Shown here piece after piece: positions 4,279 to 60,652 of a stretch of 64,000 bases of DNA. The first letter of the stretch is position 1, and every line of letters starts with the position of its first letter. Source of the DNA: Clostridiaceae bacterium (lineage in GTDB: Bacteria; Bacillota; Clostridia; Lachnospirales; Lachnospiraceae); NCBI GenBank assembly GCA_910574345.1, contig CAJSZV010000015.1, positions 1-64,000 on the forward strand. Direction: 5' to 3'. The position numbers and the translations under genes were made by a program. The notes below the pieces were generated by a model. It made no database searches. It worked only from the letters and a program-made list of their open reading frames with translations, and was not told the DNA's origin.

Positions 4279-4557
4279 CCGCAACAAAACAACGCAAACC
4301 ACAGAACCACATCGAAAATTCTTCGTTCTGATCTTGGAACGTGCTGGCGGTCAAAATGTCCAGCACCACCATGCCGAAAATCAGAAGTGCAAAGTGCACA
4401 CTTGATTTTGTCGTAACGTGGCCGACATTTTGTCGCTCACGTTTTTGCCAAACGAATACCATCGTTCTTCCAAGTATATTATGGGCGAAATCGAAAAAAA
4501 CAGGCTAATGGCATGACAGCCCCATTTCAAAAAACATGACACCGCCCCTCGGATACG

Positions 4558-40879: not shown

Positions 40880-42973
40880 ATGAGAAGAAAAGTATGTAAA
40901 ACAGCGGCGGCTTGTTTCTGCATGGCCGGAATAACCCTTTGTCAGCCTTTTATGTCCCACGGGGCCTGGCAGCTAAGGGGTTCTAAATGGCAGTATAAGC
41001 CGGAAGGAAGCAGTGAAATGCTGAGATCTGTCTGGCATCAGACAGATCACGAATGGTATCGTTTTGACAGTTCAGGTTTCATGGCAGAGGGATGGTATCT
41101 GGACACCGACGGCAGATGGTATTTTCTAAATCCCATATCAGACGGAACAAAGGGGAGGATGATGACAGGCTGGCAGTGGATTGACGGCTACTGCTATTAT
41201 CTGAATCCAAAGAGCAGCCGGTCTCATCCCCTGGGAGCCATGTATGCCGGTGAGAGAACGCCTGACGGTTACCAGGTAGACGAAAGCGGGGCCTGGACAG
41301 ACGAAAACGGAATACCTGTTTTCATTTCGGGAAAAGGAATTATTACAAAGGCACAAGGAAACAGAAAGATTTCCGAAAGTACCGGGAAGACCTCCGGCAA
41401 CAGCGGTTCGGGAAGTGTCAGACGCAGCAGCGGCAAAGGAAGTCCGACCGATATGAACGGCAGCGGCACCACCACTGCCGGGAATGAAGAAAACAGAAAG
41501 AATGACAACAAAATTCAATCCGATGAATCCTGCGGGGACACGGAAAACACAAATCATACAGGTGAATCAGCAGGTACGCCGTCCAACACGGAGACTTCTC
41601 CTCCGGTTCAGACAACAGACAAATCTTCAGAAAAAGTCAGCTGGCAGGTACATTTCACGGATGCATCCGCCCATCAATTACATCTGGCGCCATCAAGATC
41701 GGGAAATGCCGAGGATGGCAGCTCTCTGACAATCTATTTTCAAACACAAATCACAGATGCCCAAGGGCACATCTGGAAATCTTTACAACAATCCCCTTAT
41801 ATTGCCGCCGTCACAGGTCCTGAAAGCAGGATATTCTATGTGGAATACATCCGGACAGGCGAGACGGACACAGAACCGGAACAGGAAGAACAGGAGATAC
41901 TAAACTCCTATATGGAGCTTGCCAGAGAGGAGGAAGCCCATTTCCTTGGAGTGAAACCGGAGGAGGTGCCGGATTCCAGATTTATAGTTTCCCATAAAAC
42001 AGGATGCGACCGCCGTCTCCAGTCTGCGGCAAGCAGGTTGGAGACGGGAGAAAGCAGGACATGTTATGTCATCGGCAGGAATTATGTGCCGGAAGGGACA
42101 GGGATAAAAGAATATTACGGTGATGAGATGGAGTATTCCCACAGCACAGAGGGAATCGTTGTTCTGGAAGATGACACTTACACAGTGGTCAGGTTCCGGA
42201 TATCCAGAAATTCCCAGGAGACGGCAGAGGAACACGTGTGGACAGGCAGTGAGAAACGCCGCTGGAACATAGGAGATGTGCAGGAGCGGACATTGGACGG
42301 CGTGGCATACCGCTTCCGGTGCATTGACCAAAATTACGGCGATGAGACGGACAGAAGCAGGCAGAAAGCACTGTTTCTATGTGATACCGTAATCGGAGCG
42401 GATACAGGTTCTGAATATGTGTATGAAAAGATGGAAGACGGTACTTACGGATACCGGTTTTACCCAGGCCCTGTGGTTTCCTTTGGAGACACGGATTCCT
42501 ACAAATATTCTGCTGTTCGAAGATGGCTGAATGCATCCGAAGAAGAGTTCGGAGAAAGTTTAAAAATCCCCACAGGGGTGACTTACGGGTATGAAGGCAG
42601 TACGGAACCAGAGATGGGAGAAAAACTGCAGAGCGGCAGCCTGAAATCCCACTATATAGGAAGCCAAAACATGTCAGACGGTCTGTTTATCCTGTCTGTG
42701 GACGAGGCATTAAAGTACAGGCAGTGGCTTTGGAAATTCCAGGGTTCCGAAGAAGAAAACCCCGAAAGTCAGTACAGCACATTCTGCAAAAGCTATTGGC
42801 TGAGAACGCCGGAGTGGAACAGGGAAGAGAGAAATCATGTGTATGTGGTGGATTTGGTTTTAAAAAATATTCATCCCCGCACAGTAATGGAGGAAGAGAA
42901 TTCCGGGGATGTGGAACTGGGAAGTACGGCGAGCACAGGCCTAAGGCCGGCCTTTGCAGTACAGCAGTATTAA
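40880..42973 (+). CDS. Secreted cell-wall-binding protein with DUF6273-like domain
   Basis: 697 residues, AAAGGAGG upstream. Signal peptide (KTAAACFCMAGITLCQPFMS) ending near SHGA. Residues ~30-140 are choline-binding-type wall repeats: WYRFDSSGFMAEGWYLDTDG, RWYFLNPISDGTKGRMMTGW and GYQVDESGAWTDENG. A long Ser/Thr/Gly/Glu-rich linker (~155-255) spans the wall. From ~255 there are folded segments, and from ~470 a DUF6273-like domain (WNIGDVQERTLDGVAYRF, YSAVRRWLNASEEEF, KSYWLRTPEW, STGLRPAFAVQQY at the very end). DUF6273 occurs in gut Firmicutes surface proteins of unknown role. First gene of the surface locus; it carries the wall module at its N-terminus, whereas the next gene carries the same module at its C-terminus. 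Confidence 0.85.
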   Translation: MRRKVCKTAAACFCMAGITLCQPFMSHGAWQLRGSKWQYKPEGSSEMLRSVWHQTDHEWYRFDSSGFMAEGWYLDTDGRWYFLNPISDGTKGRMMTGWQWIDGYCYYLNPKSSRSHPLGAMYAGERTPDGYQVDESGAWTDENGIPVFISGKGIITKAQGNRKISESTGKTSGNSGSGSVRRSSGKGSPTDMNGSGTTTAGNEENRKNDNKIQSDESCGDTENTNHTGESAGTPSNTETSPPVQTTDKSSEKVSWQVHFTDASAHQLHLAPSRSGNAEDGSSLTIYFQTQITDAQGHIWKSLQQSPYIAAVTGPESRIFYVEYIRTGETDTEPEQEEQEILNSYMELAREEEAHFLGVKPEEVPDSRFIVSHKTGCDRRLQSAASRLETGESRTCYVIGRNYVPEGTGIKEYYGDEMEYSHSTEGIVVLEDDTYTVVRFRISRNSQETAEEHVWTGSEKRRWNIGDVQERTLDGVAYRFRCIDQNYGDETDRSRQKALFLCDTVIGADTGSEYVYEKMEDGTYGYRFYPGPVVSFGDTDSYKYSAVRRWLNASEEEFGESLKIPTGVTYGYEGSTEPEMGEKLQSGSLKSHYIGSQNMSDGLFILSVDEALKYRQWLWKFQGSEEENPESQYSTFCKSYWLRTPEWNREERNHVYVVDLVLKNIHPRTVMEEENSGDVELGSTASTGLRPAFAVQQY

Positions 42974-43016: not shown

Positions 43017-46000
43017 ATGAAGAGAATAAAAAAGAGAAAAAAACTCCTGGTTTGGTCTATGGCATCAGCCATGGCGCTTCAGGGGATAACCCCTGCTGCA
43101 GCGGTCTGCGGTGCAGTGGAAACCAGCGGACAGGGACAGAAAACCTGGGTATCAGCTACCTTGTCAGACGCCGTGAAAGGAGAACCGGCCACACCAGGTA
43201 ATGCATGGGAGGGATTACCCATAGTATCCGCTTTGAAGTCTAAGGCAGCAAAAACCTTAGGTCTAAGAACCTCAGCCACAGGTGATCTGTGGAATGAATG
43301 GAAGGGCAATATGGATTTTCCGGGATCAGGGACACAAAAGGAACCTTATCAGATTCTTGGACTGGCCCATTTGATGGGATTGTCCGAGGCAGTGGCGGCA
43401 GGAATTGATTTTGAGGGAAAATATTTTGAACTGGCTCAGGATATTGACCTGGAGGGTCTGGATATTAACAACGGAAGCTGGAATCCCATTGGCTGGTATC
43501 AAAATGAGGAGGAGCTGGGAGAACCGGTTTCTCACGGATTTTCCGGTACTTTTGACGGATGCGGCAATACCATATGGGGACTTAAGATCCACCGGGCAGG
43601 GACAGATGCGGATTACGCCGGGCTGTTCGGGCTTATTGACGGGGGCTGCGTCCGTAACTTAAAGATCGAAAACGCACAGATCTACGGAGGAGATAAAGCG
43701 GCGGTTTTGGCAGGAGCGGTGACAGGCAAATCCTATATCTATGATGTCTTTGTATCAGGATATGTGAGAGCATCAGGAGATGCAGGAGGAATAGCCGGAA
43801 CCGCAGAGGGAAAAGGAGACCGTGTTCTTATAGAAAATTGCCGGGCAGAAGGGATCTCTGTCCTGTCGGAGGGAGGTAGCAGTTATACAGGCGGAATAGC
43901 CGGACAGGCAGCAGAGGCTGACCTTATAGATAATGTGGTCATAACCCAGGACGGGAGCGGAGACAGAATCCGGGGCAAGGGTTATACAGGCGGTATAGCA
44001 GGACGCATGAAGCAGGCAGGAATCTATAATTCTTATGTGGACGGCACCATAGGGGGCAATGGGGCAAAAGCTGTGGGAGGAATCGCAGGACTGTATGAGG
44101 GCGGCGATTTGATTCTGGCCAGATTTGCAGGTGATATCGGCAGAACGAACAACGGTTCCATGGCAAGAGAGGGAACTTTTGTGGGTATGCGCAAGGGAAC
44201 TTTCACCTATGGCACAGAGAAAGATAATAATCTGTCCTATCTGTTCACCAATACGGCGGGAAAGGCGAAGACTGTCTTTGGCTCTTCCATGGATGGCGAC
44301 AATGTTTTTACCAAATATGCCCACATCGGATATTGGACAGACCATGGGACAAAGTATGTCACAGTGGCAGGCGTGACAGAGACCGGATGCGGGGACAGAT
44401 ACTTCTATGAAGAACTGGAAGAGGGAGTGCGCTATCTCATGACTCAGAAACTGGAAGACGGATTTGAGGGAGATTTGGACCATTATGCTCCGGGATACCA
44501 GGGAGAACCGGTAAGAGGTTATCTGCTCTCCATACCAAGAATTGATGCCCTGAATGCCAACGGAACTTATGACACGGACGTGGCCTCTCTGTCCGCCATT
44601 CCCACAGGCGTCAATACCTATTACCGAACCATGGACAAGGACCACAGCGGCGCCGTGGCTCCCGGCGCCACAGTATCCGTAGCCACCTCTGCCAGGAATA
44701 ACGGAAGAAATCGGTATCAGATGGTTATGGATGATATGGAGCCGGGAGGCGTCGTGCCTCCTTCCTATCTCAATGAGGATGGTGAGGCTGTGCCCATGAC
44801 CTATGTCAATGGAGGAAGCTACAGTTTCCAGATGCCTTCCTGCGATACGGAGATCAACGCAGAGTATGTGAAAGTGACCACCAAGCTGGAGCTGGATCAT
44901 GAGGAGACCGTCATTGCTGTGACCCAGACAAGGAGCGGAGACAGAAAAAATCCTCAGATTGTCACAGAAGTCCGAAATCAGTCCGGGATTCTGGTTGCCA
45001 GATACATCAACGGCAATCAGGACACGGCTGTAGAAGTACAGCCCATACGGATTCATGCGGAGCATAATCAGGCAGGAAGCACGGCGGACAGAACCATCAT
45101 GTGGTCAGTGGACGACAGCGACCTTCTGCTGCATACCTCCGCCCAGGGCTATACCCTGGAGGATGCCAGAATTATGCCGAATCTTGAGGGGACCTTTATT
45201 CAGGGAATCATAAACCGGGAAGTGAAGAAACAGGCGGACAGTCAGTATATGGAAGCCATAAGCCCTGTCATATATGAACAGACAGCAGTATTGACAGCCG
45301 CGTCCAATCCGGCCACATCGGCGGACAACATACCGGTGTACGGCAACTGCAAGGTGACGGTCACAATGCAGATCCTTGATCAGACCACCAGGAGAGTAGA
45401 AGGTCTGAGCTTGAATTATGCCAGCCTGGACTGCAGGATTACAAGGACATTGCAGGGAGACCGGAAGAATCCTACAGAGACCATTACAGCTGAGGTTCCT
45501 TCCATTTTAGCAGCAGACTTGTTTCCCAAACAGCCCTTTTATAAAAACGTATCCTGGAAAGATGAGGAAAGCGGGCAGATTCTGGTGCTTTCCCCCAGCG
45601 GCGCTCATCAGGAAAACTTAACAGTTGGTCTGCGGTTTGACCCGGAAGGAAAGGCTAATCCGGCCTGGATTCAAAATGTGATACAGGCCGATAACCAGAT
45701 CAAGAAGACAGATCCTTACAAAAAGCTGGAGGGCAGTGCAGTTTATCAGGAGACCATTACGGCTGTGGCGGAAGACCAGACTCATGGAGTCGTGTCGGCA
45801 GCATGCAATGTGACCATACATTTTGAGACAGACGATCAGACCGTTATTGTTCCGGAGCAGGTGAGGGCGGAGCATACCAGGACCGAGTATGAACTTTCTG
45901 TAACCAGAACAGGTGACGACCGGACGCCGGCCTTGCGCTATGAAGGATTTGAAGAGATGGCTTTGAAAGCGGATGTCTATCCTGATTGTCCCGCAGAAGC

Positions 46001-46820
46001 CGGTTACACGCCCTATGACAGGGGGGTGGTCTGGAGCACAGACGACATAGGCACCTTGATTGTACGGGAAAACGGAACCGTTCTGCCTGTGAAAGATTCC
46101 GCCTGGATCTGGGAGGCAATGAACGCGGCATCCCGTTCTGGGGACAAAAAGGCGGAGGCCGCAAAGACCATAAAGGTACGGGCGAAGGCTGTCGGAGGGC
46201 AGGCTGAGGATACGGTGGAGGTAGTGCTTCATCTGACTGCAAGAGACCAGGCCGTACCATATAGAAGTTACGGATCAGGAGGCAGTTCTGGAAGGGGGTC
46301 CGGTTCTTCGGGAAGTTCTTCCGGCGGGCCGGGGGTAGAGGGAGTTTATATAGGCAGCAGTGTAAACATTCCCATGGCATCTGCGTCGGGGTTGAATATA
46401 GGTGAAGGACAGGGAAAATGGAACAGGACAGCAGAAGGATATTGGACATTTGCCATGAACGGGCGTGAACTCAAGGATGAATGGGCCTATATCCAGAATC
46501 CCTATGCAGATACAAAAAAAGGGCAGAGCGCCTTTGATTGGTTCCGCTTTGACGAAAAAGGCCATATGGTAACCGGGTGGTATACGGATAAAGACGGGCA
46601 TCAGTATTATCTGAATCCTGTTTCGGATAACACCAGGGGGCGGATGATGATTGGCTGGAACTGGATTTCAGGCAATGACAGTCTCAAACGATGCTATTAT
46701 TTCCAGGAAAAATCAGATGGCTATAAAGGTTCTCTGTTTAAAAATCAGATGACGCCTGACGGCTATGCAGTGGGCGGAGACGGGGCCTGGACCGTTCAGA
46801 ATGAGGTACAGACCAAATGA
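43017..46820 (+). CDS. GLUG-repeat surface protein with C-terminal wall-binding repeats
   Basis: 1,267 residues from ATG at 43017 (GAGAGGAG upstream; a TTG one codon earlier is possible). Signal peptide after a basic start (KRIKKRKKLLVWSMASAMAL). Residues ~100-150 (SGTQKEPYQILGLAHLMGLS, ELAQDIDLEG) lead into GLUG repeats at ~195-385: AGGIAG, TGGIAGQ, TGGIAGR, VGGIAGL, as in M26/IgA-peptidase-type beta-helical adhesins. The middle (~620-1085) holds strand-rich, Ig-like repeats, each opening with a 'RTLQGDRKNP' or 'RTRSGDRKNP' or 'VTRTGDDRTP' phrase. A Ser/Gly linker (~1085-1105) precedes wall-binding repeats (WFRFDEKGHMVTGWYTDKDG, YYLNPVSDNTRGRMMIGW, TPDGYAVGGDGAWT). No peptidase motif was seen. 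Its stop overlaps the next start (ATGA). Confidence 0.87.
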   Translation: MKRIKKRKKLLVWSMASAMALQGITPAAAVCGAVETSGQGQKTWVSATLSDAVKGEPATPGNAWEGLPIVSALKSKAAKTLGLRTSATGDLWNEWKGNMDFPGSGTQKEPYQILGLAHLMGLSEAVAAGIDFEGKYFELAQDIDLEGLDINNGSWNPIGWYQNEEELGEPVSHGFSGTFDGCGNTIWGLKIHRAGTDADYAGLFGLIDGGCVRNLKIENAQIYGGDKAAVLAGAVTGKSYIYDVFVSGYVRASGDAGGIAGTAEGKGDRVLIENCRAEGISVLSEGGSSYTGGIAGQAAEADLIDNVVITQDGSGDRIRGKGYTGGIAGRMKQAGIYNSYVDGTIGGNGAKAVGGIAGLYEGGDLILARFAGDIGRTNNGSMAREGTFVGMRKGTFTYGTEKDNNLSYLFTNTAGKAKTVFGSSMDGDNVFTKYAHIGYWTDHGTKYVTVAGVTETGCGDRYFYEELEEGVRYLMTQKLEDGFEGDLDHYAPGYQGEPVRGYLLSIPRIDALNANGTYDTDVASLSAIPTGVNTYYRTMDKDHSGAVAPGATVSVATSARNNGRNRYQMVMDDMEPGGVVPPSYLNEDGEAVPMTYVNGGSYSFQMPSCDTEINAEYVKVTTKLELDHEETVIAVTQTRSGDRKNPQIVTEVRNQSGILVARYINGNQDTAVEVQPIRIHAEHNQAGSTADRTIMWSVDDSDLLLHTSAQGYTLEDARIMPNLEGTFIQGIINREVKKQADSQYMEAISPVIYEQTAVLTAASNPATSADNIPVYGNCKVTVTMQILDQTTRRVEGLSLNYASLDCRITRTLQGDRKNPTETITAEVPSILAADLFPKQPFYKNVSWKDEESGQILVLSPSGAHQENLTVGLRFDPEGKANPAWIQNVIQADNQIKKTDPYKKLEGSAVYQETITAVAEDQTHGVVSAACNVTIHFETDDQTVIVPEQVRAEHTRTEYELSVTRTGDDRTPALRYEGFEEMALKADVYPDCPAEAGYTPYDRGVVWSTDDIGTLIVRENGTVLPVKDSAWIWEAMNAASRSGDKKAEAAKTIKVRAKAVGGQAEDTVEVVLHLTARDQAVPYRSYGSGGSSGRGSGSSGSSSGGPGVEGVYIGSSVNIPMASASGLNIGEGQGKWNRTAEGYWTFAMNGRELKDEWAYIQNPYADTKKGQSAFDWFRFDEKGHMVTGWYTDKDGHQYYLNPVSDNTRGRMMIGWNWISGNDSLKRCYYFQEKSDGYKGSLFKNQMTPDGYAVGGDGAWTVQNEVQTK

Positions 46821-49800
46821 GAAAATTGTTTCGCAGAAGTACAGGATTGATTCTGTCAATAGCCTTGCTGTGCGCCATGATTTTTCCCCATCTTCCAGCA
46901 AAAGAGGTTTTGGCGGATACAGGAGTGGTAGAGGCATGGGGAGAGGGCTGGCATTATTATTGTATTGACGGATTCGGATATGCATCCAACGGAGTTTGTT
47001 CCAATGGAGACAAATACAAGAGGGTCAGCACGGAAGCCGAATTGAACTCCAGAGAACGTGCTGTTGTATTCTGGTCCCTTTTGTCATTCATGTCAGCTTA
47101 TGTTCATCAGGAGGCAGCGGCGGCAGCCGTTGCTTCCATCAACCAGGGAGCCTCTGCGGCAGGGCTTAGGAGGATCGAAAGGGCTGTGACGGAGGAGGAC
47201 TTAAAAGCAGTGATTCATTCCTCATCTGTGAGAGCCCGATATGACTGGCTGGATTACGCGGCGGACCACGGAGAAGAATATCTGAAGCTGGCAGGTCTTT
47301 TAGGCGGCAGCAGCCAGACAGGAGGGAGAGGGGAGATACCGGCCATTCTCAAAAGCGCGACTTCTCTGTCCGCGGCTGTCCGGGCGGTGGATCAGGACGG
47401 GACGCTGGTTTTGGAATTTGATTCGTCAGGGAAAGACGGAGATTTTATTGAGAAAGTGCCTCTTAAACTGTCTGCGGACGGAGAAAACTGGCAGGAGGAA
47501 AGCGTTAATGGCTGGAATGTGGAAAAGAGTTCGACCCAGATACGCCTTACCAATCCCAATCCCGATGCAGGAGCCATATACCTGAAATTTGATCCTGCAG
47601 GCACGGACTATGCCTTATCATCAGGAGGATATGGTTCTGCAGATGAATGTTATACCTCTTCCGTGGAAGTGTGGAAATGCGTGGAATGCTGCAGAACCCA
47701 TTTTGCAGGGGGAAAAGAGCACCCCTTAGCAGAGCATCAGAGGAATGCATGGCTGGAACTGAAACAGGTTCCGGCAGTATATTATGCCATGGCAGGAGAC
47801 GGCAAAGGCTCTCTGGCAGGCGAAGCGGAAGGGGAACTGCATTTTCAGATATACCGCCATGAAGAAGAGATGGAAGCAGATTATCTGGTTCAGCTTTACA
47901 AGTACGATTATGAGACGGGTAAGCCCTTGGAAGGAGCGGGATTTGACCTGTATGAACGGTTCGACGATAAGGAAGAAGTGAACAGGGAACAGGACGGCAG
48001 AGGCCAGATCTACGAAGGGGAGATCAGGCACAGCCCGGTTATATGGGACGGCTTCCGTCTGGTGGCTTCCCTCCGCACAGACAGCGCCGGTCGTGCCGCA
48101 TACAAGTCCGAAAAACAGTATCACTATGACAAGACTTTCTGTGACGGCCATCCAGCTCCGGTATTTGCCGCAGTCCCGGAGGAGATCGTAAATGATGAGA
48201 CAGGGGAGGTGATCAATGAGGGAGAGATAGAAAGTGCAAAAGCGGCTAACGGGGAATTAGCAGAGCAATGGCTGGCGTGCGTGGCTTCCTGTGAGGAAAA
48301 GACACAGGAGGGCAGTCATTTCCACTGGATCATGGACGAAGTGGATGCAGGGGCCATTGAAGATTCGGCGGGCTTTGGAGAGTGTACCTATGCCGGCGTT
48401 ACAGAAAGCGCGGATCCAGAGAAAGCTTATGAAAGCTCAGGCTGTCAGGCGGACTGCCGGGAGACTTATGAGCGGTTTGTTTCCATGAAATACAGCTATA
48501 CCTTTATGGAGACAACAGCACGGGAGGGCTATGTTCTTCATGGCAGCCACAATGATGACATCCCCATAGAGATCATCACCACAGATGCTTCCCAGAACGG
48601 AGCCCACGGAGCCTTTGGAGGGGGATACAGTAAGGATATTACAGGCAGTATCCTGTTTACTGGGGCTCAATGGGAGCAGGAAGATTCCCCGGAGAAAAGA
48701 AATGTATCGGAGGGACAGGCAGAGACCGGAGGCTATTACACGGAAGAGATAAAGAGAAAAGCAGAACAGATCATGTCCAAAGCCCTTATAGGCTATGAAT
48801 CGAATGAAGAGGAAAGCCGGGAAGAGACAGATACCGGTTCTGATGAAGAAAGGGAAAACAGGGCAACAGCCTTAAACGGGGAAAGGAAAAACAGGGCAAC
48901 GGTTTTAAACGGAGAGAAGGAGGAAAGGGCGGCTGCATCAGGCGGGAATCGGGAAAACACAGCCACTGTTTCCGACGGAGAGCGGGAAAAAGCAGGGAAA
49001 GCCACATCCTCCGAAGGAATCAGGAAACGCTCCTTTTTATTTCGCTTTGCAGAGAACCTTGCAGGAACCTTAGGCAGGAACCAAAGGGACGGGGCGAGGG
49101 ATGAAGGACGCTCCGGCAGAGGGACTGAGCTGTTTGCCAGAGCATACGCGGAGGCCCTTCATTCCGCCAGCAAGGGAGAGGAGGCGGAGAAAGGGCCGTC
49201 GGACCGTTACTCCCACAATAACGGCCAGGACGGAAGGGAAGAGGCCTGGAGAATCTACGACCACAGGACAGAAGGGGAAATTCATATTAATAAAAAGGAT
49301 ATGGATTTGTCCCGCGGAGAGACTCAGGGCGACGGTACGCTGGAAGGAGCGGTCTATGGGCTGTTTGCCGCCCAGGATCTCATCCACCCGGACGGAGCCA
49401 CAGGAGTAGTGTTCCGCCAAAATGATCTGGTAGCCATAACGGCTACAGATAAAGAGGGAGACGGGTCTTTTATGGCCATTACAGAGATGCCGGGCTGTAC
49501 TTATGATTATAAAACCGGCCAGGTTATCCGGACAGACGACGGATGGACAGGCCAGGCTCCATCCAATCTGTATGTGAGTGACAGCCGGATTGATGATTAC
49601 AGCGGAGATCATGCCTATGTGCGTTCCTACACGGATTATCAGTCACAGAACGGAAACTGCTGGATAGGCAGACCTCTTTTGTTAGGCAGTTATTATGTAA
49701 AAGAGCTGAGCCGGTCTGAGGGCTATGAACTTTCTGTAAACGGGCGCAGTGACAAGGTCAGCAATTACGGATACAGTACAAAAGTCGCCATTCCACGGGG

Positions 49801-52800
49801 CCGGGGTTCCGTGGCAGTTGTCAGGGCTCCTTATGTGGAGCCTCAGTCCTCAGGCAAAGAGGAAGACACCATGCCGAATGTGGTGAATTTTGTCATCAGG
49901 TCTCAGGGAACAGGAGAGCAAGGTTATGATATTGCTCTGCCGTCATTTCCGAGAGGAACCAGGCTGTATCGGAAAGATATGTCTCAAAAGGAGACAGAGC
50001 TCCAAGTGCCTGCAGGCGAAAAGGTAAAAAAATATCTCTTTGACCAGTCAGGACAGCCCGTCTATCAGAGAGCGGATGCAGATCACACCTACGCCAAACG
50101 GAATCCTGACGGCACATTTGTGACAAGGGATGTGGCTGTCAGCGCAGTAGTGCCGTCTATGGGAAAGGCCGCCGTCCAGACCATTGACGAGGAGACGGTA
50201 AAAGAAGTTTTGGATGAGGACCCAGACGGTGAAAACAGCAAAAAACTAAATCTTGACGGACAAGACAAGAAACAGTTTCTCTACGTGAAGATGAAAGTGG
50301 AACAGGCACTGCGGGCCTGCGGATATCAGACGCCCCGTTATTCTACTGAGACAAAGGGAGTCTATGACAGAGGGGTCCGGCAGGGCGAGACAGACCATAA
50401 GGGTTTATCCGGAGTCCTTCCGGGTGAGCCGGCGTCAAAGACCGTTTATGGTTATCCGGTTATAAAGGTAGAGATTCCGAAAAAGACCGGGGATAACCGT
50501 CCGGTGACAGTGATGGAGGCCATCCTCACCTTGTTAGACTTTTACAGGGAGAATCCGTGGTACAGTTTTGGAGGAATCGACAGTTACAGAGAGTCGGAGA
50601 GTAATTGGCAGTTTTCGCTTTATGCCGGAGTTGCAGGCAATCCGGCAAATTATATTGTACTCACAGACAGTGAGGAAGAAAGTATGATATATCACAGGCT
50701 GCCGTGGCTTCCTGACGACGGGGATGAAAGTCCCAGATGGATCTATGCCCTTTATACCAATGTGCCTGATAAACAGGCATTCGGAACCTATGAAAATTTT
50801 CGTTCCTGGCAGATTCTGGGCAGTTACCGATGCAGTGCGGTATTGGTCAGTGACGCAGTGGCAGAGGGGGACGGGACCCTGTGTTCCAAGACCCAAAAAC
50901 AGAATGTCTACTATGAAAAAGGGGAAATACTGAGGGACCCTGACGGAAATCCCCTTCAGGCCTACGAGTGGACAGATGTTATGGTTCCGGTTACTCAATA
51001 TCAGCAGGTATATACCTGGACGGAAATTCCTGTAAAGGACAGAAAAGGACAGCTGACAAGCCATGGCAGCGGAAGTTATACGGATGCCTATGGAGTTCTT
51101 CAAAAGGACACGGACGAAGCCATGAATACTGCATATAAGCTGGTTCTTCCACAATCTTCAGTCACATTGACCAGGGAAGACATAGGAAAACTTCCGGCTT
51201 CCTACGGGTATCAGGCCGGTGAAACCATGGGGGCCGGCGATTATGCACTGACCGTGCTGGGAGCGGGAGTTTTGACGTATCTGGACTACGATACCCAGAC
51301 ATTGACCGGAGACAGTCTGTATGTGCGGCCTGTAAGCCTGACTTATCCCGGACAGGATTCCCATTATCAGGACGGAGACGGGGCGCCGGGACAGGGAACA
51401 CGGAAAAATCCTGTGGAGGTGGAAGAGCGGATCATCCGCCAGTCAGCCAAGATCCTTAAGACGGTGAAAGAAGATTCGGCTGTCAAGGCCATAGATAATT
51501 TTCGGTTTAAAATTTATTTAAAAAGCAATCTTGAACGACTGTATCGGGATGAAGAGGGCAATGTTCTATGGGTAGACCGGAAGGGAAAGACAGTGGTGCC
51601 CCAGGAGGTTCTCAGAGAATATCCGGCCCTTGTGCCTAAACTCTATACAAAGGTAACTCATAACACAGCTCCTTTGTACAAGGATTCCCTGGAGTCTGTC
51701 AAAGCCAATAAAGCGTTATATGGTTTTCGTAACGGTATCATCAATGACAGTTCCAATCCAGGATATACAGCCATTCTTGAGACGGATACGGCTTCTTCCC
51801 TGGGGGAAGGGAGAAACTATAATTACGAAAAATTTTTTGATGCCATTCTGACAGCGAACATAGACAAATGGAAAAATCCCTCTCCTTCTCACACCTCTCA
51901 CAGACCTTTGGGCAATGAAGCAAACCGTTCCGGGGAGGCAGAGGAAAATGCAGAAGTGACAGACAGTGTGAGGCAGTTTGCTGTTAACTGGTATCTGGAT
52001 GAGGAAGTAAAAAAGCTGAAGAAAGCGGACAAAAAAAGTGATTCAGGCAATGATGCCGCATACAGTGATGAACTCTATGATTCTGCACTGTGGGAAGCCA
52101 TAAAAAAGAGTGAAAACTATTTAAAGCCGTTTTTTGCTTATAATATTGACCAGCTCTATGCCATTGAGTGGGATGGCGAGAAAGACGGAGGAAGGGACAA
52201 AGACAAGACTACATTAAGTACAGATCAAAAGGAAGGAAACCAGTGCTTTGCCCTTTCTCAGTATTTGCCTTACGGAACTTATGTTGTGGTGGAGCAGCAG
52301 CCTATGTATGCAGAACTGGGAGACTTTAGAAACCGCCATTATGATATAGATAAACCAAAGGAGATGGAAGTTCCTGCAGCATACGAAAGCCGTGAAGGGG
52401 CATTAACAGATCCGGAAAAGATGAATCATTTTTATGATTATAATCAGGAAGACAGTCCTGAGGAGCAGGCCGGGAAATATAAGATTCGGTTCCATGAAGA
52501 GAGCCATGTGATAAATGCTCATAATCACTATGGAGATTTTCAGATTTATAAATATGGAATGGACATAAAGAATATTGCCAACGGTGTGTCGAAGGAGGCG
52601 GGAAAAGGGGATTACTTTGCTTTGACTCAGAGCCTTTATAAACCCTATCAGAATTATTATAACGAAGAAGACGACCGAACAACAAAAGATGTGCCGTATT
52701 ACCTGACGGAAGGTATGAGCGGAAGAGAGAAAGTCTCGGCAGTTTACAGGTTTAGTTCTGTATCTGAGAACGGCAAAGCTGGGGCCATGACCGGGGTGTC

Positions 52801-55800
52801 CACAGCTTATGACGGCAGGTATGCTTCTGCCCTTGTGCCGTGGACCATGGCAGTGCCGGCAGATGAATCATCAAGTCTTAAGCCCCTGCCGGACGGTGAG
52901 AGCAGTTATAAAGGATTGGCATACAAAGAATTTACCAACGTTCCTTATAAAAGCAGACTGAGAATCGAAAAACTGGACTCCGAGACACATGAAAACCTTC
53001 TCCATGACGGAGCCATGTTCCGCATCTACAGAGCGCAGAGGGAGGAATCCCCCTATGGGGACGGAGCGGTAAAAGTCTGTCAGGAGGAAACTCTCATGGT
53101 AGGAAGCCGGGAATTTCTTATGGGGATGGGAGCGGCAAACATTACGAAGGTAGCCAGAGGGTCTCTGACTGCGGGGCTTTTATACAGCGGATTTGTGCCT
53201 GCCGGGACTCCTGTGTGTCAGGAGAAGGATCAGGTGGTTTTTTATGACCAGTATGGCGCCAAGACGGGAGAGTTTAAGGCCTGTACAACGACGAGGGACG
53301 GACTGTTGGAAAAGGGAAGCGGCCAGGAGTACGGTGATCAGAACGCCGGATATCTGGAGACACCGGAAGAACTGGAGGCAGGAGTCTATGTGCTGGCGGA
53401 GGCAGCGCCTCCTTCGGGGTATACAAGGACAAAGCCAGTAGCAGTGGAGATCTACAGTGACAACGTGGCCTACTATAAAGAAGGCAATCCCAGGACAAAG
53501 GTGTTATCCGTGATTTATGAGAAGCTAAAGGACTTAAAGTCTCATACCGCCAGAATTTATGTGGAAAATGCGCCCATCAAAGTCAGGATTCACAAGAAAA
53601 AGAAATCTGCCGATACTGTGACCTATCTGTTAAGCGGAAGAATTGACGGGAGTCTGTCCGAGATCGGAGGCGATCCATCCTGCGAATATGCTTACAGCCA
53701 GGGCGATTATCTGGGATATGGCTGGAAAAAAGGTATTTTGGAGTATTTGCAGCAGAGAAAAGAAGCTGGCGATCAGGTGGATATTATCTATCATCAAGGC
53801 GTTTTTGCCGGTTATGGCTACATTACAAAGAGGCTGGAAAAGAAGGAGCATGAGAATCCTTATGTGGCAGGGGCTGCCATGGCCTTGTATGAGGGGATAG
53901 AGCTCAAGCCCTCTGGCGACAGGGAAGATTATGGATATGAAGGACTGACAGTTGAAAGAAGCCTGACGGGCAATGTGACCCGAATGTATGTGAAAGAGGG
54001 GTATGCAGGAACCCGAATTGAATTCAGGCAAACGACTGACGGGAATCAGGAATCTTATTGGGATGCAGTGACAGTGGAGAGGCAGGACACGGATATTCTG
54101 TATTATGACCTTGGAGATCTTGATATTTTCGCAAAACGAACCATAGGCGGACACGTGATTTCCTACGGCTATGACAAGGATCACCATCTGGTTAATTTAG
54201 AGCATCTGGAGGAGGACAGAAAAAACGTTGCCAGAACGGACAGGGAGCATTCCATCTTTGCTTTTAAAGGAGGGATTCCCTATCTGGAATTGACAGGAGA
54301 CGATTTTACCGGAATGTCTTATGATGCGTCGGACCATATTCTTACACTTCCCTCCCGCGCTGTTGTCTATCACCTGGATCGGGATGGCAACCGGGACGCC
54401 ATGGTGGATCCCATAACCGGTATGGCTTATGTCATGGAAGAAGGAAGAGGAAAGATCTATGTGTGGCCTGTGAAGGTAACAAAGGGCAGTGACGGAAGAA
54501 CCATTGCTGCGGATAAGATTGTCACCTGCCGGGTGGCGACCATAGGGGAAAATCCGGAGAAACAATCAGAAGAAAACAGTCAGGAAGAAGGATATGTGAC
54601 GGGAACATGGAGACAGGAAGGCGGGGAAGAAAGTCATTCCATGTATACGATAATCTCCAATGAGAGAGGAGACAATATGGAGGGGGAAGCCATTCTTCAC
54701 CATAATACAGGGAACTTTGAAAAATATCTGCGTCCTGTCCTGGATGAACACGGACTCCCCATATATTACAAAGCAGGCGGCGGTGTCTATGCACAGAAGA
54801 CGACCCTCTGTGACCGCGACGGGGATTTTGTCAGAAGTAAAAGAACGGATTTGCTTGAGGATTTTAAAAGGGCATCCTATGTCATAGGGGGCAGCGATAC
54901 TAAAGATGAGCCCGTAACTCACAGACTGGGAGAAAGTTATCTCTTGGAAAATACATGGATAACCGGGGAAGGAACACCCAATGATCCCTTTGATTTTTCC
55001 ATGACAGAGGGACAGCCGGACCTTTTAAAGCGAGTGCCTGCCGGGAGCTATATCATGGAGGAGATAAAGGCGCCGCCTGGCTGTATAAAAGGTCTGCCTG
55101 TGGGGATGACCATAAAGGAGACGGCTGCAGTTCAGACAGGGCAGATGACAGACGACCATACAAAGATTCTCTTCCAAAAGCGCGACACCTCAGAAAATTA
55201 TGAATATGAAGTGCTGGATATGGGACTTACTCATAAGACCGGAGCCCATAAGGTGATTGGCACCGTGAAAGAAGGCAAAGGAAGTTTTAGCCATGGTCAG
55301 ATATCCGGTGCGGGTTTGGTTCTCTGTGATGAAAAGGGGAAGGAGATTCTCGCCTGGGAGACCACGAAGACGCCTTATTACCTGGAAGGTCTTGCTCAGG
55401 GCAAGTATATGGTAAAAGAGAACAAGACGCCGAAAGGGTTTGTCGCCTGTGATCCTGTACATGTGGAGACGGATGATACCGGCCAGGTTCAGGTGGTGGA
55501 TATTGTCAATGATCACACCAAAGTAGAAATTGAGAAATACTCCCTTGACGGTACTCAGACCGTGCCGGTGGAAGGCGTGGGCTTTGCTCTTTATGAGGCG
55601 GATAACCATACCCTTTCCTATGACCGGGAAAAACAGGTGGATACATGGGAGACTGGCGACAGAATTGTTTATCAGGAATTTATCAGGGCTTTTGAAAAAA
55701 TGTATGGGGAGTACGGAACCAAGGGACGAAAGGTGTCATGGAGTGCAAAGGGGAAAGATTATACTGCTGGTTATGTATCCCATAAGCAGATTGATCCTGT

Positions 55801-58800
55801 GGAGGGGAATACGGCTTTTCCGGCCAGTGCAGAAATGATATTTTCCACAGAAGAGGGGAAAAGAATCCGCATTGTTGCCTGTGAGCAGCATGACAATGGC
55901 CAGGGCAGGGATTTTACTTACGAATATCAGTTTGATTATAAAAAACTTCCTGTAAGTGATTATGCCGTCTCTTTTGAAACGGTGGAAGGGATTCGCCGTT
56001 TTGACTATCTTCCTGCAGGAAAAAGTTTTGTTCTGGTGGAGGAAAAGACGCCGGCAGGTTATGGGAAGGCGCCGGACCGGTTAATCACAGTGGAGAATAC
56101 AGCCGATATACAGAGGCATCGGGTATTAAATCAGGACAGCAGACTTCTGATTTCCAAATGTGCAAAGAGAGAAGGGGATCAGGAAGAAGACATAAAAGAA
56201 CTTCCGGGCGCAGAGCTGGCGCTTTACCGGGCGGACGACAGAGGCGAACTGTCTCAGGATGACAGCCATCTTGCAGCACAGTGGATCAGCGGTACAGACG
56301 GTATTTATACGGAGGAAGACTGGGTCAACGGGAGAATCCCCAAAGGCTATGAAGCAGGGGATTTAAAACCACATGAATTAAAGAAGCTGCCTGCCGGAAT
56401 TTATTATCTGGCGGAACTTAAGAGTCCGGCTTATTACAGCCTGATGGAACCTGTCCGAATCCAATACAGCCAGGAAGAGCAGATTCAGATTATCAGAGCC
56501 TTTAACGAGGCGGTGAAAGGAGAGCTTGAGGTTGCAAAGAAGGACGGACAGGGACAAATGCTTAAGGGGGTACTGTTCGAACTTGCGGCATACAAGGAAT
56601 CTCAGAAGAATACCCCGGTCTTTACCATGAAGATCAGTGATCACGAAGGAAAGATTGCAGTATCCGATCTTCCCGTAGGGGAGATACAGGAAGACGGGAC
56701 CATAGTTCCATACCAGTACCGCCTGAAAGAGATCACGCCGCCGGAAGGATATGCATCGGATATGGAGATTCATACCTTTCAGTTTCAGCCTGATGTTCAT
56801 GGCGTTTCCTATACATATGGCCAGAAGGCGGAAGAAACATTCAATATTGTTAATGAAAAGACAAAGATTGCCATTGGCAAAAAAGAATTTGGCTCACCTG
56901 ATCAATGGGTTGCCGGAGCCGTAATGGCAGTATATGAGGGAAAAGGAAGAGACGAGAAAGGGGAATATATTTATGAAGAAACACCCATAGACACATGGAT
57001 ATCAAAAGAAGAGGAACCCCATATATTAGAAGGGCTTACAGCAGGCAGGACCTATCTTTTGACGGAACAGAAGGCTCCAAATGGCTATGAACTTATGAAC
57101 CCTCTGGCCTTTGTGTTGTCGGCAGACGGAAGAAAGATCTGTGCCGTGACCGGTCAGACCGGACAGATTCTGGTTCATCCCTATGAAGGAAGTGATATCA
57201 TTCGTTCCGTAGAGATACAGGGACGATATGGAGTGAAGGTGGAGATGGAGCTTGAGAACCAGAAAGGAGAAGTCATCGCTTCCTGGACAGCCGGAGGTTA
57301 TGGTCATGAACTGAGAGAGGCTGACGGAATCCGGGACGGTGAGCTGTGCCGTCTCACAGAGACGACGGTTTACAGCGACGGAACCAGAGAGGTGACAGGA
57401 CGTACTACAAGAAGAGTTCATCTGTCAGAGAAGGGCGTGTGGAAGGTTCCCGACCGAAATGTGGAAAAAGTAAATCTGGAACTGGCTCATGAGGACGGAA
57501 TGGTCATCAAATCATGGAATCCGTCGGAGATGATTCAAGTCATGGAGGTGGACAACCCTGCAGCACCTGAAAATCCTGAGATTACCATAGATTATGTCAG
57601 TCCTCAAAAGGCTGTATGGGTAACTGTCGCCTGCAGCAACACGACTCATTATCCTGCAGATATCACTTTGACAGCAAAGCCGGGAGCGGAGTCTGTGGTG
57701 ATTGACTCCGGAGAAGGTCTGGCGGAGAACGGGCGGATTCGGTATACATTAAAACAGGTGAAACCAGGAGAACGAAGGACAGTCCGGTATGCCTGCCAGC
57801 TGGAGCCAGGGGCGAAAGAGATATCGGTGTCAGTCGCCAGCCAGTGTGCAGGAATCCGCGCCCAGGAGGAAAAGAGAATCCCCTTGCATCAGAAGAATCG
57901 TCTCACCGTCTTTTATCAGGTGACAGGTACAGGAAAAAGAACAGAAACCGGCCAGGACCGGGAATTCCAGGTGTTCTTGTACAGCGAAGAGGGAGAAGAG
58001 CTGAAAGGAAGTTATGAGTACGAGGGAAGCAAAAAGGGAAACATCCGAAGCGGTGATGTGATCTCCCTTTCAGCCAATGATTATATCGTAATTAATCCGG
58101 GCAGCATTTACAGGAATATACGATACCAGGTCCGATACCTCTCGGAAGATGAGGCAAAGGTTCAGAATGGATCGGGTCAGGCAGCGGCGGACACAGGGGC
58201 CATAGCAGTCTTTTCCAGGGAAGTGACAGATCATACGCAGGCAGCGGTTTTCCAAAAAGGAAATGCCTATGAGATCACGGAGACAACCCGTTACAGCGAC
58301 GGTACTGCAAGGGAGAGTCATAAGTTACGGTTTATTCTTGACGATCAGATTTCCATAGAGGGAGTCCAGGTTATGGACCGCAGACAGGAGATAAGGGTCA
58401 GTAAGCTGGAGATAAGGGGGCAGGAAGAACTGGAAGGCGCCCATATGCAGATCATGAAAGAGGACAGGACTTTAGTGGAGGAATGGATCTCAGGAAAAGC
58501 GCCGTATCGGGTTCAGTCTGTATTGGAGCCGGGAAAAACATACATTCTTCGGGAAGAAGGGCCGCCGGAGGGATACAGCTATGGGGAAGAAATTGAATTC
58601 CAAGTGGAAGAAGGGGAATGCGTCAATCAAATCATAATGGAAGACTATATGACGGAAGTGATTGTAAGCAAAAAGACACTGACAGGAGAGGATGAACTGC
58701 CGGGAGCTTTCATGCAGATAATCAGCCGGGACGGTCAGGTGGTCGAGGAATGGATTTCCGATACAAAGCCCCATAAGATTCGGGGAAAACTGAAAGCCGG

Positions 58801-60652
58801 GGAGACTTATATCCTCCATGAGGAAGGAACACCGGAGGGATACGCTTATGCCGCGGATCTGGAATTTACAGTATCCAAGAACAGAGAACCAGTCAGGGCA
58901 GAGATGAGGGACGGTCCTACTTGTGTGGAGATCACCAAGACTGATATGACAGGCAGTGAAGAACTGGAAGGGGCTGTTCTTCAGGTGATTGATAAAAACG
59001 GGCAGGTGATAGAAGAATGGGTCTCAAAGAAAGAACCTCATAAGATCACAGGCGTTCTAAAGGCCGGAGAGACTTACATACTTCGTGAAAAAGCCGCACC
59101 GGAAGGTTATGGGTACGCTGCAGATGCGGAGTTTACGGTTTCTCTGGATGGCAGTGTCTGTAAGACTGTCATGAAGGATGATATAACCAGAGTGGAGATT
59201 ATAAAGGCGGATCAAGGCACAGGGCGTCCATTATCCGGCGCCGGGTTCAAACTTCAGACTTTGGACGGCAAAGTCGTGGAGGAATGGGTCAGCAGCGAAG
59301 AACCCCACAAGATTGAAGGAAGGCTGAAGGCCGGGGAAACTTATCTTTTAAAGGAGACAAAAGCGCCGGCGGGATACAGAAGTGAGGAAAAGGAACTGCA
59401 GATTACGGTTCCGAAAGAACCGAAGACTCTGACCGTAAAAGTAGAAAACCGCAGAAAGACTACAACTTCAAAAGTTCCTCCCGGTCCCGATAAAAAGGAG
59501 AAGAAAATAGGAAAAGTGTATGCGGGGTACTGGTCAGAATTAAGAGCCCATGGGGAGAGGGATACCTTCCAGACATTCACGAATCTGGAACTCCCCAAAG
59601 TCGGAGACAGTCCCAGGATATTATGGGTATGGATCATGGGAATCTTAAGCGCGTGTCTCACAGCAATCCTTGCGGCAAAGAAGAGAAAAACCGGAAAATT
59701 TCTTATGGGCTTAGGCTTATGTATGCTTATGGGAATTTCCTTCCCTGCCGCCGCAAAAGCAGAGACGGTTGAAGCAGACGGGGAAGGACGGATTATTGTA
59801 ACAGGGGAAGTATGCGGGGAGAAAAACAGTGAACCAAAGCAGCTGCCGGAGACTTATTATTACAAGAGCACGCAATACCGGCGGCAATCCTGCCAGATTG
59901 TGGAGGCCATGACAGAGGCAGGGACAAAAGAAGTCAGAGACGAGATTATCTATGAGGAGGTGGAGCAGACAGATTCATTGCCTGAGGAGACGGATATCCT
60001 TGTGACAGACCAGAGATACGGGACGGAATATGTCCGCAGATTCCCGGTGTTGGATGTAGAATTTTATAATTGGCGGTGGATAAGCGGGTTTGAATTCCCT
60101 GTTATTGTGGAAGAGGCGGATGCACAAGTCTACGACCTGAACGGTATACAGGTTCCGGCCAGAGAGGAGAAGCCCTTTCAGGGATATGAAGATGCGCTGT
60201 TAAGCCTGGCACAGGTGAATCCGGAATATTACCGGATTTTGGAAGTTACCTGGGCGGGAGAACCGTGGATTGATGATAACGGAAAGGTATACAGAGAGGC
60301 CGTGGCGGCAGGGGAGAAATATGTGGCGGACTGTAAGGCGGTTTATGGAGGAACCGCCGTCATAGAGCCGGTGAAAGGCACGGCATGGCAGGCTGTCTAT
60401 GAACGGGTGCCTCAGGAAACAGAACCCCCGGAGGAAAAGAAACCGGAGCTGGAGACAAAAGAATCCAGGGCTTTGGAGGAGACTGTGCAGAATAAGGCAG
60501 AAGAATCCAGACCTCTTTCGTGGTATCAGACACGCATAGGCCGAATCGTGATCTCCATAGGGCTTTTCTTTCTCTTTCTGCCCATATTTATATGGATAGT
60601 CATAAGACGTAAAAGAAGCAAGGAAAAGCAGCGGAAGTCTTTTAAAAAATAG
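46817..60652 (+). CDS. Giant SpaA/Cna-B adhesin fused to a second membrane-anchored domain
   Basis: 4,611 residues. Signal peptide (TGLILSIALLCAMIFPHLPA). The N-terminal domain contains GWHYYCIDGFGYASNG, reminiscent of a thioester domain, but I cannot place the partner Gln. SpaA/Cna-B-type domains (start 'K.D..G..L.GA.F.L', end 'Y.L.E...P.GY') lie near residues 355-590, 820-970, 2048-2195, 2813-2880, 2902-3080, 3110-3200, 3234-3305 and 3350-3415, then four ~89-residue copies at 3859-4210. A charged low-complexity stretch spans ~658-738; a DUF11-like part lies near 3590-3690. LPKVGD (4259-4264), a membrane helix and KKRKTGK form a complete sorting signal. The frame continues without stop into a signal-peptide-like helix ending AKA (4295-4315), ~260 more exposed residues, a final helix and a basic tail. 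No sortase gene is in the window. Confidence 0.9.
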   Translation: MRKLFRRSTGLILSIALLCAMIFPHLPAKEVLADTGVVEAWGEGWHYYCIDGFGYASNGVCSNGDKYKRVSTEAELNSRERAVVFWSLLSFMSAYVHQEAAAAAVASINQGASAAGLRRIERAVTEEDLKAVIHSSSVRARYDWLDYAADHGEEYLKLAGLLGGSSQTGGRGEIPAILKSATSLSAAVRAVDQDGTLVLEFDSSGKDGDFIEKVPLKLSADGENWQEESVNGWNVEKSSTQIRLTNPNPDAGAIYLKFDPAGTDYALSSGGYGSADECYTSSVEVWKCVECCRTHFAGGKEHPLAEHQRNAWLELKQVPAVYYAMAGDGKGSLAGEAEGELHFQIYRHEEEMEADYLVQLYKYDYETGKPLEGAGFDLYERFDDKEEVNREQDGRGQIYEGEIRHSPVIWDGFRLVASLRTDSAGRAAYKSEKQYHYDKTFCDGHPAPVFAAVPEEIVNDETGEVINEGEIESAKAANGELAEQWLACVASCEEKTQEGSHFHWIMDEVDAGAIEDSAGFGECTYAGVTESADPEKAYESSGCQADCRETYERFVSMKYSYTFMETTAREGYVLHGSHNDDIPIEIITTDASQNGAHGAFGGGYSKDITGSILFTGAQWEQEDSPEKRNVSEGQAETGGYYTEEIKRKAEQIMSKALIGYESNEEESREETDTGSDEERENRATALNGERKNRATVLNGEKEERAAASGGNRENTATVSDGEREKAGKATSSEGIRKRSFLFRFAENLAGTLGRNQRDGARDEGRSGRGTELFARAYAEALHSASKGEEAEKGPSDRYSHNNGQDGREEAWRIYDHRTEGEIHINKKDMDLSRGETQGDGTLEGAVYGLFAAQDLIHPDGATGVVFRQNDLVAITATDKEGDGSFMAITEMPGCTYDYKTGQVIRTDDGWTGQAPSNLYVSDSRIDDYSGDHAYVRSYTDYQSQNGNCWIGRPLLLGSYYVKELSRSEGYELSVNGRSDKVSNYGYSTKVAIPRGRGSVAVVRAPYVEPQSSGKEEDTMPNVVNFVIRSQGTGEQGYDIALPSFPRGTRLYRKDMSQKETELQVPAGEKVKKYLFDQSGQPVYQRADADHTYAKRNPDGTFVTRDVAVSAVVPSMGKAAVQTIDEETVKEVLDEDPDGENSKKLNLDGQDKKQFLYVKMKVEQALRACGYQTPRYSTETKGVYDRGVRQGETDHKGLSGVLPGEPASKTVYGYPVIKVEIPKKTGDNRPVTVMEAILTLLDFYRENPWYSFGGIDSYRESESNWQFSLYAGVAGNPANYIVLTDSEEESMIYHRLPWLPDDGDESPRWIYALYTNVPDKQAFGTYENFRSWQILGSYRCSAVLVSDAVAEGDGTLCSKTQKQNVYYEKGEILRDPDGNPLQAYEWTDVMVPVTQYQQVYTWTEIPVKDRKGQLTSHGSGSYTDAYGVLQKDTDEAMNTAYKLVLPQSSVTLTREDIGKLPASYGYQAGETMGAGDYALTVLGAGVLTYLDYDTQTLTGDSLYVRPVSLTYPGQDSHYQDGDGAPGQGTRKNPVEVEERIIRQSAKILKTVKEDSAVKAIDNFRFKIYLKSNLERLYRDEEGNVLWVDRKGKTVVPQEVLREYPALVPKLYTKVTHNTAPLYKDSLESVKANKALYGFRNGIINDSSNPGYTAILETDTASSLGEGRNYNYEKFFDAILTANIDKWKNPSPSHTSHRPLGNEANRSGEAEENAEVTDSVRQFAVNWYLDEEVKKLKKADKKSDSGNDAAYSDELYDSALWEAIKKSENYLKPFFAYNIDQLYAIEWDGEKDGGRDKDKTTLSTDQKEGNQCFALSQYLPYGTYVVVEQQPMYAELGDFRNRHYDIDKPKEMEVPAAYESREGALTDPEKMNHFYDYNQEDSPEEQAGKYKIRFHEESHVINAHNHYGDFQIYKYGMDIKNIANGVSKEAGKGDYFALTQSLYKPYQNYYNEEDDRTTKDVPYYLTEGMSGREKVSAVYRFSSVSENGKAGAMTGVSTAYDGRYASALVPWTMAVPADESSSLKPLPDGESSYKGLAYKEFTNVPYKSRLRIEKLDSETHENLLHDGAMFRIYRAQREESPYGDGAVKVCQEETLMVGSREFLMGMGAANITKVARGSLTAGLLYSGFVPAGTPVCQEKDQVVFYDQYGAKTGEFKACTTTRDGLLEKGSGQEYGDQNAGYLETPEELEAGVYVLAEAAPPSGYTRTKPVAVEIYSDNVAYYKEGNPRTKVLSVIYEKLKDLKSHTARIYVENAPIKVRIHKKKKSADTVTYLLSGRIDGSLSEIGGDPSCEYAYSQGDYLGYGWKKGILEYLQQRKEAGDQVDIIYHQGVFAGYGYITKRLEKKEHENPYVAGAAMALYEGIELKPSGDREDYGYEGLTVERSLTGNVTRMYVKEGYAGTRIEFRQTTDGNQESYWDAVTVERQDTDILYYDLGDLDIFAKRTIGGHVISYGYDKDHHLVNLEHLEEDRKNVARTDREHSIFAFKGGIPYLELTGDDFTGMSYDASDHILTLPSRAVVYHLDRDGNRDAMVDPITGMAYVMEEGRGKIYVWPVKVTKGSDGRTIAADKIVTCRVATIGENPEKQSEENSQEEGYVTGTWRQEGGEESHSMYTIISNERGDNMEGEAILHHNTGNFEKYLRPVLDEHGLPIYYKAGGGVYAQKTTLCDRDGDFVRSKRTDLLEDFKRASYVIGGSDTKDEPVTHRLGESYLLENTWITGEGTPNDPFDFSMTEGQPDLLKRVPAGSYIMEEIKAPPGCIKGLPVGMTIKETAAVQTGQMTDDHTKILFQKRDTSENYEYEVLDMGLTHKTGAHKVIGTVKEGKGSFSHGQISGAGLVLCDEKGKEILAWETTKTPYYLEGLAQGKYMVKENKTPKGFVACDPVHVETDDTGQVQVVDIVNDHTKVEIEKYSLDGTQTVPVEGVGFALYEADNHTLSYDREKQVDTWETGDRIVYQEFIRAFEKMYGEYGTKGRKVSWSAKGKDYTAGYVSHKQIDPVEGNTAFPASAEMIFSTEEGKRIRIVACEQHDNGQGRDFTYEYQFDYKKLPVSDYAVSFETVEGIRRFDYLPAGKSFVLVEEKTPAGYGKAPDRLITVENTADIQRHRVLNQDSRLLISKCAKREGDQEEDIKELPGAELALYRADDRGELSQDDSHLAAQWISGTDGIYTEEDWVNGRIPKGYEAGDLKPHELKKLPAGIYYLAELKSPAYYSLMEPVRIQYSQEEQIQIIRAFNEAVKGELEVAKKDGQGQMLKGVLFELAAYKESQKNTPVFTMKISDHEGKIAVSDLPVGEIQEDGTIVPYQYRLKEITPPEGYASDMEIHTFQFQPDVHGVSYTYGQKAEETFNIVNEKTKIAIGKKEFGSPDQWVAGAVMAVYEGKGRDEKGEYIYEETPIDTWISKEEEPHILEGLTAGRTYLLTEQKAPNGYELMNPLAFVLSADGRKICAVTGQTGQILVHPYEGSDIIRSVEIQGRYGVKVEMELENQKGEVIASWTAGGYGHELREADGIRDGELCRLTETTVYSDGTREVTGRTTRRVHLSEKGVWKVPDRNVEKVNLELAHEDGMVIKSWNPSEMIQVMEVDNPAAPENPEITIDYVSPQKAVWVTVACSNTTHYPADITLTAKPGAESVVIDSGEGLAENGRIRYTLKQVKPGERRTVRYACQLEPGAKEISVSVASQCAGIRAQEEKRIPLHQKNRLTVFYQVTGTGKRTETGQDREFQVFLYSEEGEELKGSYEYEGSKKGNIRSGDVISLSANDYIVINPGSIYRNIRYQVRYLSEDEAKVQNGSGQAAADTGAIAVFSREVTDHTQAAVFQKGNAYEITETTRYSDGTARESHKLRFILDDQISIEGVQVMDRRQEIRVSKLEIRGQEELEGAHMQIMKEDRTLVEEWISGKAPYRVQSVLEPGKTYILREEGPPEGYSYGEEIEFQVEEGECVNQIIMEDYMTEVIVSKKTLTGEDELPGAFMQIISRDGQVVEEWISDTKPHKIRGKLKAGETYILHEEGTPEGYAYAADLEFTVSKNREPVRAEMRDGPTCVEITKTDMTGSEELEGAVLQVIDKNGQVIEEWVSKKEPHKITGVLKAGETYILREKAAPEGYGYAADAEFTVSLDGSVCKTVMKDDITRVEIIKADQGTGRPLSGAGFKLQTLDGKVVEEWVSSEEPHKIEGRLKAGETYLLKETKAPAGYRSEEKELQITVPKEPKTLTVKVENRRKTTTSKVPPGPDKKEKKIGKVYAGYWSELRAHGERDTFQTFTNLELPKVGDSPRILWVWIMGILSACLTAILAAKKRKTGKFLMGLGLCMLMGISFPAAAKAETVEADGEGRIIVTGEVCGEKNSEPKQLPETYYYKSTQYRRQSCQIVEAMTEAGTKEVRDEIIYEEVEQTDSLPEETDILVTDQRYGTEYVRRFPVLDVEFYNWRWISGFEFPVIVEEADAQVYDLNGIQVPAREEKPFQGYEDALLSLAQVNPEYYRILEVTWAGEPWIDDNGKVYREAVAAGEKYVADCKAVYGGTAVIEPVKGTAWQAVYERVPQETEPPEEKKPELETKESRALEETVQNKAEESRPLSWYQTRIGRIVISIGLFFLFLPIFIWIVIRRKRSKEKQRKSFKK
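48790..49030 (+). repeat. Low-complexity degenerate repeat in the giant adhesin
   Basis: Imperfect ~11-codon repeats: ERENRATALNG, ERKNRATVLNG, EKEERAAASGG, NRENTATVSDG, then EREKAGKATSSEG. Strongly charged, probably an extended linker. The DNA copies are close enough (AACAGGGCAAC...TTAAACGG) to permit slippage or recombination. Confidence 0.8.
58391..59446 (+). repeat. Four ~267-bp repeats encoding terminal SpaA domains
   Basis: Four consecutive domains of about 89 codons, starting near 58391, 58658, 58925 and 59192. Each has a Lys-bearing first strand (VSKLE, VSKKT, ITKTD, IIKAD), LxGA, VxEEW(I/V)S, a KAGETYxL(R/H/K)E segment and PEGY or PAGY. These are the Lys and Glu positions used for intramolecular isopeptide bonds in this fold. 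The second and third copies are the most alike. Confidence 0.85.

Follow-up and report, generated by a model that had tools for sequence, protein, structure and literature searches.

An in-frame fusion of a giant SpaA-type adhesin to a second membrane protein in Lachnospiraceae, a predicted bacterial surface polyprotein

In a 64,000-nucleotide stretch of DNA from a Lachnospiraceae genome (hereafter the window; contig CAJSZV010000015.1, or C15), it was found that one frame joins a giant SpaA-type adhesin to a second, putatively secreted protein, the tail domain (TD). At the junction lie a sorting-motif-like hexamer, a hydrophobic segment, a loop, and a second hydrophobic segment, which together would form a hairpin. 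All four elements are present in 34 of the 35 fused copies compared, despite TD identities to the window TD as low as 18%, and the arrangement thus exceeds chance. The fusion is probably a natural bacterial surface polyprotein. Signal peptidase would cleave it, as would sortase in most lineages.

Anatomy of the fused frame

Re-reading of the sequence bore out the unbroken 4,611-codon frame of the original prediction, and the elements of its junction lie where they had been placed. The features of the frame and its two upstream neighbours are as follows.

40880..42973, + strand: CBP1, upstream neighbour with choline-binding repeats and DUF6273
43017..46820, + strand: CBP2, weak choline-binding-repeat matches; stop codon and giant-gene start overlap (ATGA)
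46817..60652, + strand: whole fused frame, 4,611 aa; ATG at 46817, stop ends at 60652
46817..46918, + strand: N-terminal signal peptide, residues ~1-34, from the hydrophobic profile
46958..47077, + strand: thioester-domain-like region with the Gln replaced (YCIDG ... ERAVVFW)
47888..59452, + strand: SpaA-containing stalk with 10 PF17802 stretches; outer limits seen at residues 358-4212
59591..59608, + strand: LPKVGD, sorting-signal-like motif, residues 4259-4264
59612..59683, + strand: hydrophobic segment 1, residues 4266-4289, from hydrophobicity
59678..59698, + strand: KKRKTGK basic loop, residues 4288-4294, predicted cytoplasmic
59699..59761, + strand: hydrophobic segment 2, putative internal signal peptide with AKA at its end; cleavage predicted at 4315/4316
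59762..60529, + strand: TD, predicted extracytoplasmic, undescribed family
60530..60649, + strand: hydrophobic segment 3 (residues 4572-4599) and basic tail

PF17802 (SpaA) matched the window protein in ten stretches (E 2.7e-103), which gives it the repeated domains of a SpaA/Cna-B adhesin. As in sortase-anchored proteins, LPKVGD is followed by a helix and basic residues, and that part of the full sorting signal claimed originally stands. The motif itself is noncanonical, LPxVGD and not LPxTG, with V in place of the usual Thr (P1), and it is not C-terminal, as the same frame continues for 347 residues past it. On a simple hydrophobicity scale, used here instead of a trained predictor, residues 4293-4314 are hydrophobic and lie inside a stretch ending AAAKA, after which about 256 residues precede the third helix. 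With the basic KKRKTGK, the core of segment 2, and AKA directly followed by ET, the window has the features of a candidate signal peptidase I substrate.

At the N-terminus, the thioester-like region of the window keeps its Cys region and has no thioester Gln motif, and Pfam TED has no match in the first 600 residues. A QxxxW motif was seen in this region in 14 of the 33 fused N-termini scanned, and TED matched one (L115) of five proteins tested. The gene downstream of the giant gene encodes a 4-alpha-glucanotransferase (malQ). Relatives of CBP1, CBP2, or both lie beside adhesin or TD genes in many of the fetched loci.

Distribution of the fusion

The last 324 residues of the window protein were searched alone, as had been proposed, and relatives were found fused, as separate genes directly after SpaA-type genes, and elsewhere. 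Within the genus, 23 of 26 genomes have a relative; 21 of these have a fused copy, and two (G014 and G023) have an overlapping gene pair. The fused frames of the genus are mostly 3,800-4,760 aa in length, and the G020 copy (L068) ends at a contig end. A sample of the family gave matches in 35 of 397 genomes. Ten genomes of eight genera besides that of the window have a fused copy (G071, G084, G086, G136, G143, G229, G236, G307, G385, and G393), so that the fusion occurs in nine genera among the genomes searched; the G307 copy is without the hairpin. In the order sample, 14 of 295 genomes matched. Five of these matches are strong and all belong to the window's family; the other nine are short and weak (E 2e-6 to 1e-3), five of them in other families. 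Only the window's own genome matched among the 299 genomes of the phylum sample.

The circular plasmid NZ_CP022465.2 of Enterocloster bolteae encodes a fused protein of 3,925 aa that has the same hairpin and carries the annotation "SpaA isopeptide-forming pilin-related protein". A second plasmid record has an identical tail (100% identity), and in a third the tail is cut at the end of the record. The fused gene of NZ_CP022465.2 has a class B sortase gene nearby, as well as genes with TcpD and TcpE annotations. On this plasmid (L054:14506-16073), the fused gene is followed by genes for a small P-loop-like protein, a small membrane protein, and the class B sortase, and similar genes come after the fused gene in L083.

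For comparison, 60 loci were fetched, namely all 27 other places in the genus and 33 of the 38 new places from the family sample. Adding the window and the E. bolteae plasmid brought the total to 62 copies. A copy was called fused if its TD is held in a frame of more than 480 aa; the fused set includes the short or contig-end-cut frames of L068, L084, L103, L105, L106, and L115. By this definition, 35 copies are fused and 27 are not, the latter comprising 13 adjacent pairs and 14 TD genes found elsewhere. Thus, the possibility raised with the original prediction, that the two parts are always separate genes in relatives, does not hold. The other doubt raised there was a stop removed by a sequencing or assembly error. 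The window does come from a draft assembly of 106 contigs, but fused frames in 21 of the 23 matching genus genomes, in eight further genera, and on E. bolteae plasmids leave such an error scarcely credible and exclude it as the source of the fusion.

The junction hairpin

The one exception to the hairpin among the fused copies is L105, in which a short SpaA-like part is joined straight to the TD. The net charge of the loop is positive in all 34 fused copies measured (+1 to +14). The motif hexamers were picked by eye and measured afterwards. Most fused copies other than that of the window have xPxTG, and the motif of L077 is degenerate (SPYTHD). In the window's own clade, seven of eight members have V, M, or L at the Thr position.

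A signal-peptidase-like pattern, defined after the sequences had been inspected, follows segment 2 in 31 of 34 fused copies and segment 1 in two of 34. When the segment-2 windows were shuffled in 2,000 rounds, the pattern was found in 19.8 of 34 on average and in 28 at most, a high mean because these windows are rich in Ala and Glu. Since the pattern is also post hoc, the difference between the two segments carries more weight than the shuffling. L060, L079, and L081 (3/34) have no match, and among the 31 matching copies at least two (EBOL and L103) match only away from the likely site. A first-pass version of the pattern matched the signal peptides of 18 of 27 separate TD genes, which is below the rate of the fused copies. 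When the junctions were simply aligned, no column at the cut site stood out as sharply conserved.

The selection pattern was compared in three pairs of fused relatives. The dN/dS values are 0.18, 0.20, and 0.17 for the adhesin part and 0.17, 0.19, and 0.18 for the TD, while those of the junction are 0.69, 0.67, and 0.33, or about two to four times those of both flanks. Both flanking proteins are constrained and the junction is looser, a pattern that would suit signal and anchor peptides thrown away after processing. It supports the polyprotein reading without proving it, since a plain membrane linker would also fit.

Split forms, synteny, and the TD tree

In 13 of the 27 non-fused copies, the gene immediately before the TD gene is of SpaA type and ends in a sorting signal. 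Twelve of the 13 overlap the adhesin gene by a few bases, and the remaining one (L111) is separated from it by a gap of about 150 bases. The split forms break within the predicted cytoplasmic loop. In ten of the 12 overlapping pairs, a ribosome-binding-like stretch precedes the likely TD start, inside the last codons of the adhesin gene. The same kind of signal bears on whether the TD of fused genes is also, or mainly, made from an internal start codon within the loop. An ATG, GTG, or TTG does occur in or near the loop in 24 of 34 fused genes, with a ribosome-binding-like match of at least four nucleotides in ten of 34 and of five nucleotides in five of 34. However, a start codon is missing there from the other ten, and the single loop ATG of the window lacks a ribosome-binding-like match. 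Compared with the overlapping pairs, internal initiation is therefore quite improbable.

Among the other 14 non-fused loci, five (L086, L088, L089, L094, and L095) have the TD gene first, then CBP1- and CBP2-like genes, and then a giant SpaA gene. In three TD-first loci whose adhesin end was read (L136, L137, and L140), the adhesin terminates with a normal sorting signal, and its gene overlaps the following class B-like sortase gene; in L138 and L139 the adhesin extends beyond the fetched stretch. For the remaining nine TD copies, no SpaA gene was found within the stretches fetched when these were searched by BLAST with the adhesins of the window and E. bolteae. Thus, the TD may also function without an adjoining adhesin gene. 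Four loci with a TD and no SpaA gene found nearby (L100, L104, L109, and L110) have a malQ-HD chromosomal neighbourhood resembling that of the window cassette.

Fusion and splitting recur on the TD tree. Nine changes between the fused and non-fused states are needed, of which three are forced by starred branches, on a tree with 24 weak inner branches out of 59 and several uncertain long rows. The split pairs of L074 and L076 sit within the fused genus clade. The window genome itself has both forms, the fused copy on C15 and a split copy on C21 (L082). The latter is an adhesin-TD pair of 3,545-aa and 471-aa frames with an 8-base overlap.

The TD family

No relative of the TD was found by sequence in the PDB, and the matches to Pfam, NCBIfam, and PHROGs were weak, each in only one of 53 members. 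The weak matches to DUF4131, DUF3792, and EF0750, which all fall below the cut-offs and over the hydrophobic stretch, were therefore set aside. A viral or phage origin was also considered and rejected, as two scans of viral contigs and phage records gave no relative. The TD recurs as a partner at giant SpaA adhesin loci. Since it accompanies the adhesin frequently, it may be an accessory to its assembly or anchoring; such a role on the membrane side is probable, and it is the weakest step of the argument.

Proposed processing and alternatives

From the sequence features, the following route may be proposed. One chain would be translated with a secreted adhesin, a sorting signal with a stop-transfer helix, a basic cytoplasmic loop, an internal signal peptide, a secreted TD, and a C-terminal membrane anchor. 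Signal peptidase I would cut past the AxA of segment 2 and free the TD as a single-pass membrane protein. In most lineages, sortase would cleave the xPxTGD-like motif and move the adhesin to the wall, and the hairpin between the two cuts would be discarded. In the window's lineage, with its drifted motif (V, M, or L for T), the sortase step is less sure and may have been lost or may depend on an unusual sortase. A more specific version of this proposal has about an even chance of being right: that the back-to-back sorting signal and internal signal peptide form an excisable hairpin, which would yield a wall adhesin and a membrane partner at a fixed 1:1 ratio, and that the gene has been repeatedly fused and split across Lachnospiraceae because processing restores the same products. 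Identical mature proteins from fused and split genes would explain why the two forms interchange.

The original prediction had offered two products, a polyprotein and a three-pass membrane protein that displays the adhesin and the TD together. In the latter, the two would stay covalently joined via an uncut hairpin. The polyprotein is favoured by the segment 2 pattern, the junction dN/dS, and the position at which the split forms break. The uncut protein would have the same predicted topology, and the direct joining of L105 and the missing P1 Thr of the window are in its favour. However, signal-peptidase-like patterns are rare after segment 1, repeated splitting and a looser junction suit two separate products, and in the five loci where the TD gene lies upstream of the adhesin gene there is no covalent link. 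The uncut form is thus unlikely. A stronger competitor, although still the lesser possibility, is partial processing, in which signal peptidase would free the TD while the adhesin of the window clade stays anchored in the membrane via segment 1, its sortase step being inactive. It is a variant of the polyprotein reading, and the probabilities of the two overlap. The clade has kept the signal-peptidase-like site while the Thr has drifted, and C15 carries none of the five sortase genes of the window genome. On the other hand, the clade retains the rest of the motif, the helix, and the basic stretch, and the sortases encoded elsewhere in the genome could act on them.

Known systems and implications

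The signal peptide, SpaA repeats, xPxTGD-like motif, helix, and basic stretch resemble those of SpaA/Cna-B LPXTG adhesins and thioester-domain adhesins, the latter also through the QxxxW motifs and the TED match of L115. The difference is that the sorting signal is internal here and a second secreted protein lies in the same frame. Sortase-assembled pilus loci that include an accessory protein, such as SipA of Streptococcus pyogenes (PMC4049620), likewise group a surface protein, a sortase, and an accessory membrane protein. The TD, in contrast, has no match to signal peptidases or to any other family, and it is often fused to the substrate.

Among the matches listed from the open PMC literature, there was no description of such a protein.

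Viral polyproteins have internal signal peptides that are cut by signal peptidase. The fused protein resembles them in its internal signal peptide, for which the same kind of cut is predicted, but it comes from bacteria, and the other side is the predicted site of a sortase. If processing proceeds as predicted, a bacterial cell would encode its own equivalent of a viral polyprotein and mature it with enzymes of general secretion. Giant adhesins of gut bacteria gain a partner protein in the TD, and the naturally occurring range of arrangements, from fused through overlapping to separate genes, would be useful for studying why genes fuse or split.
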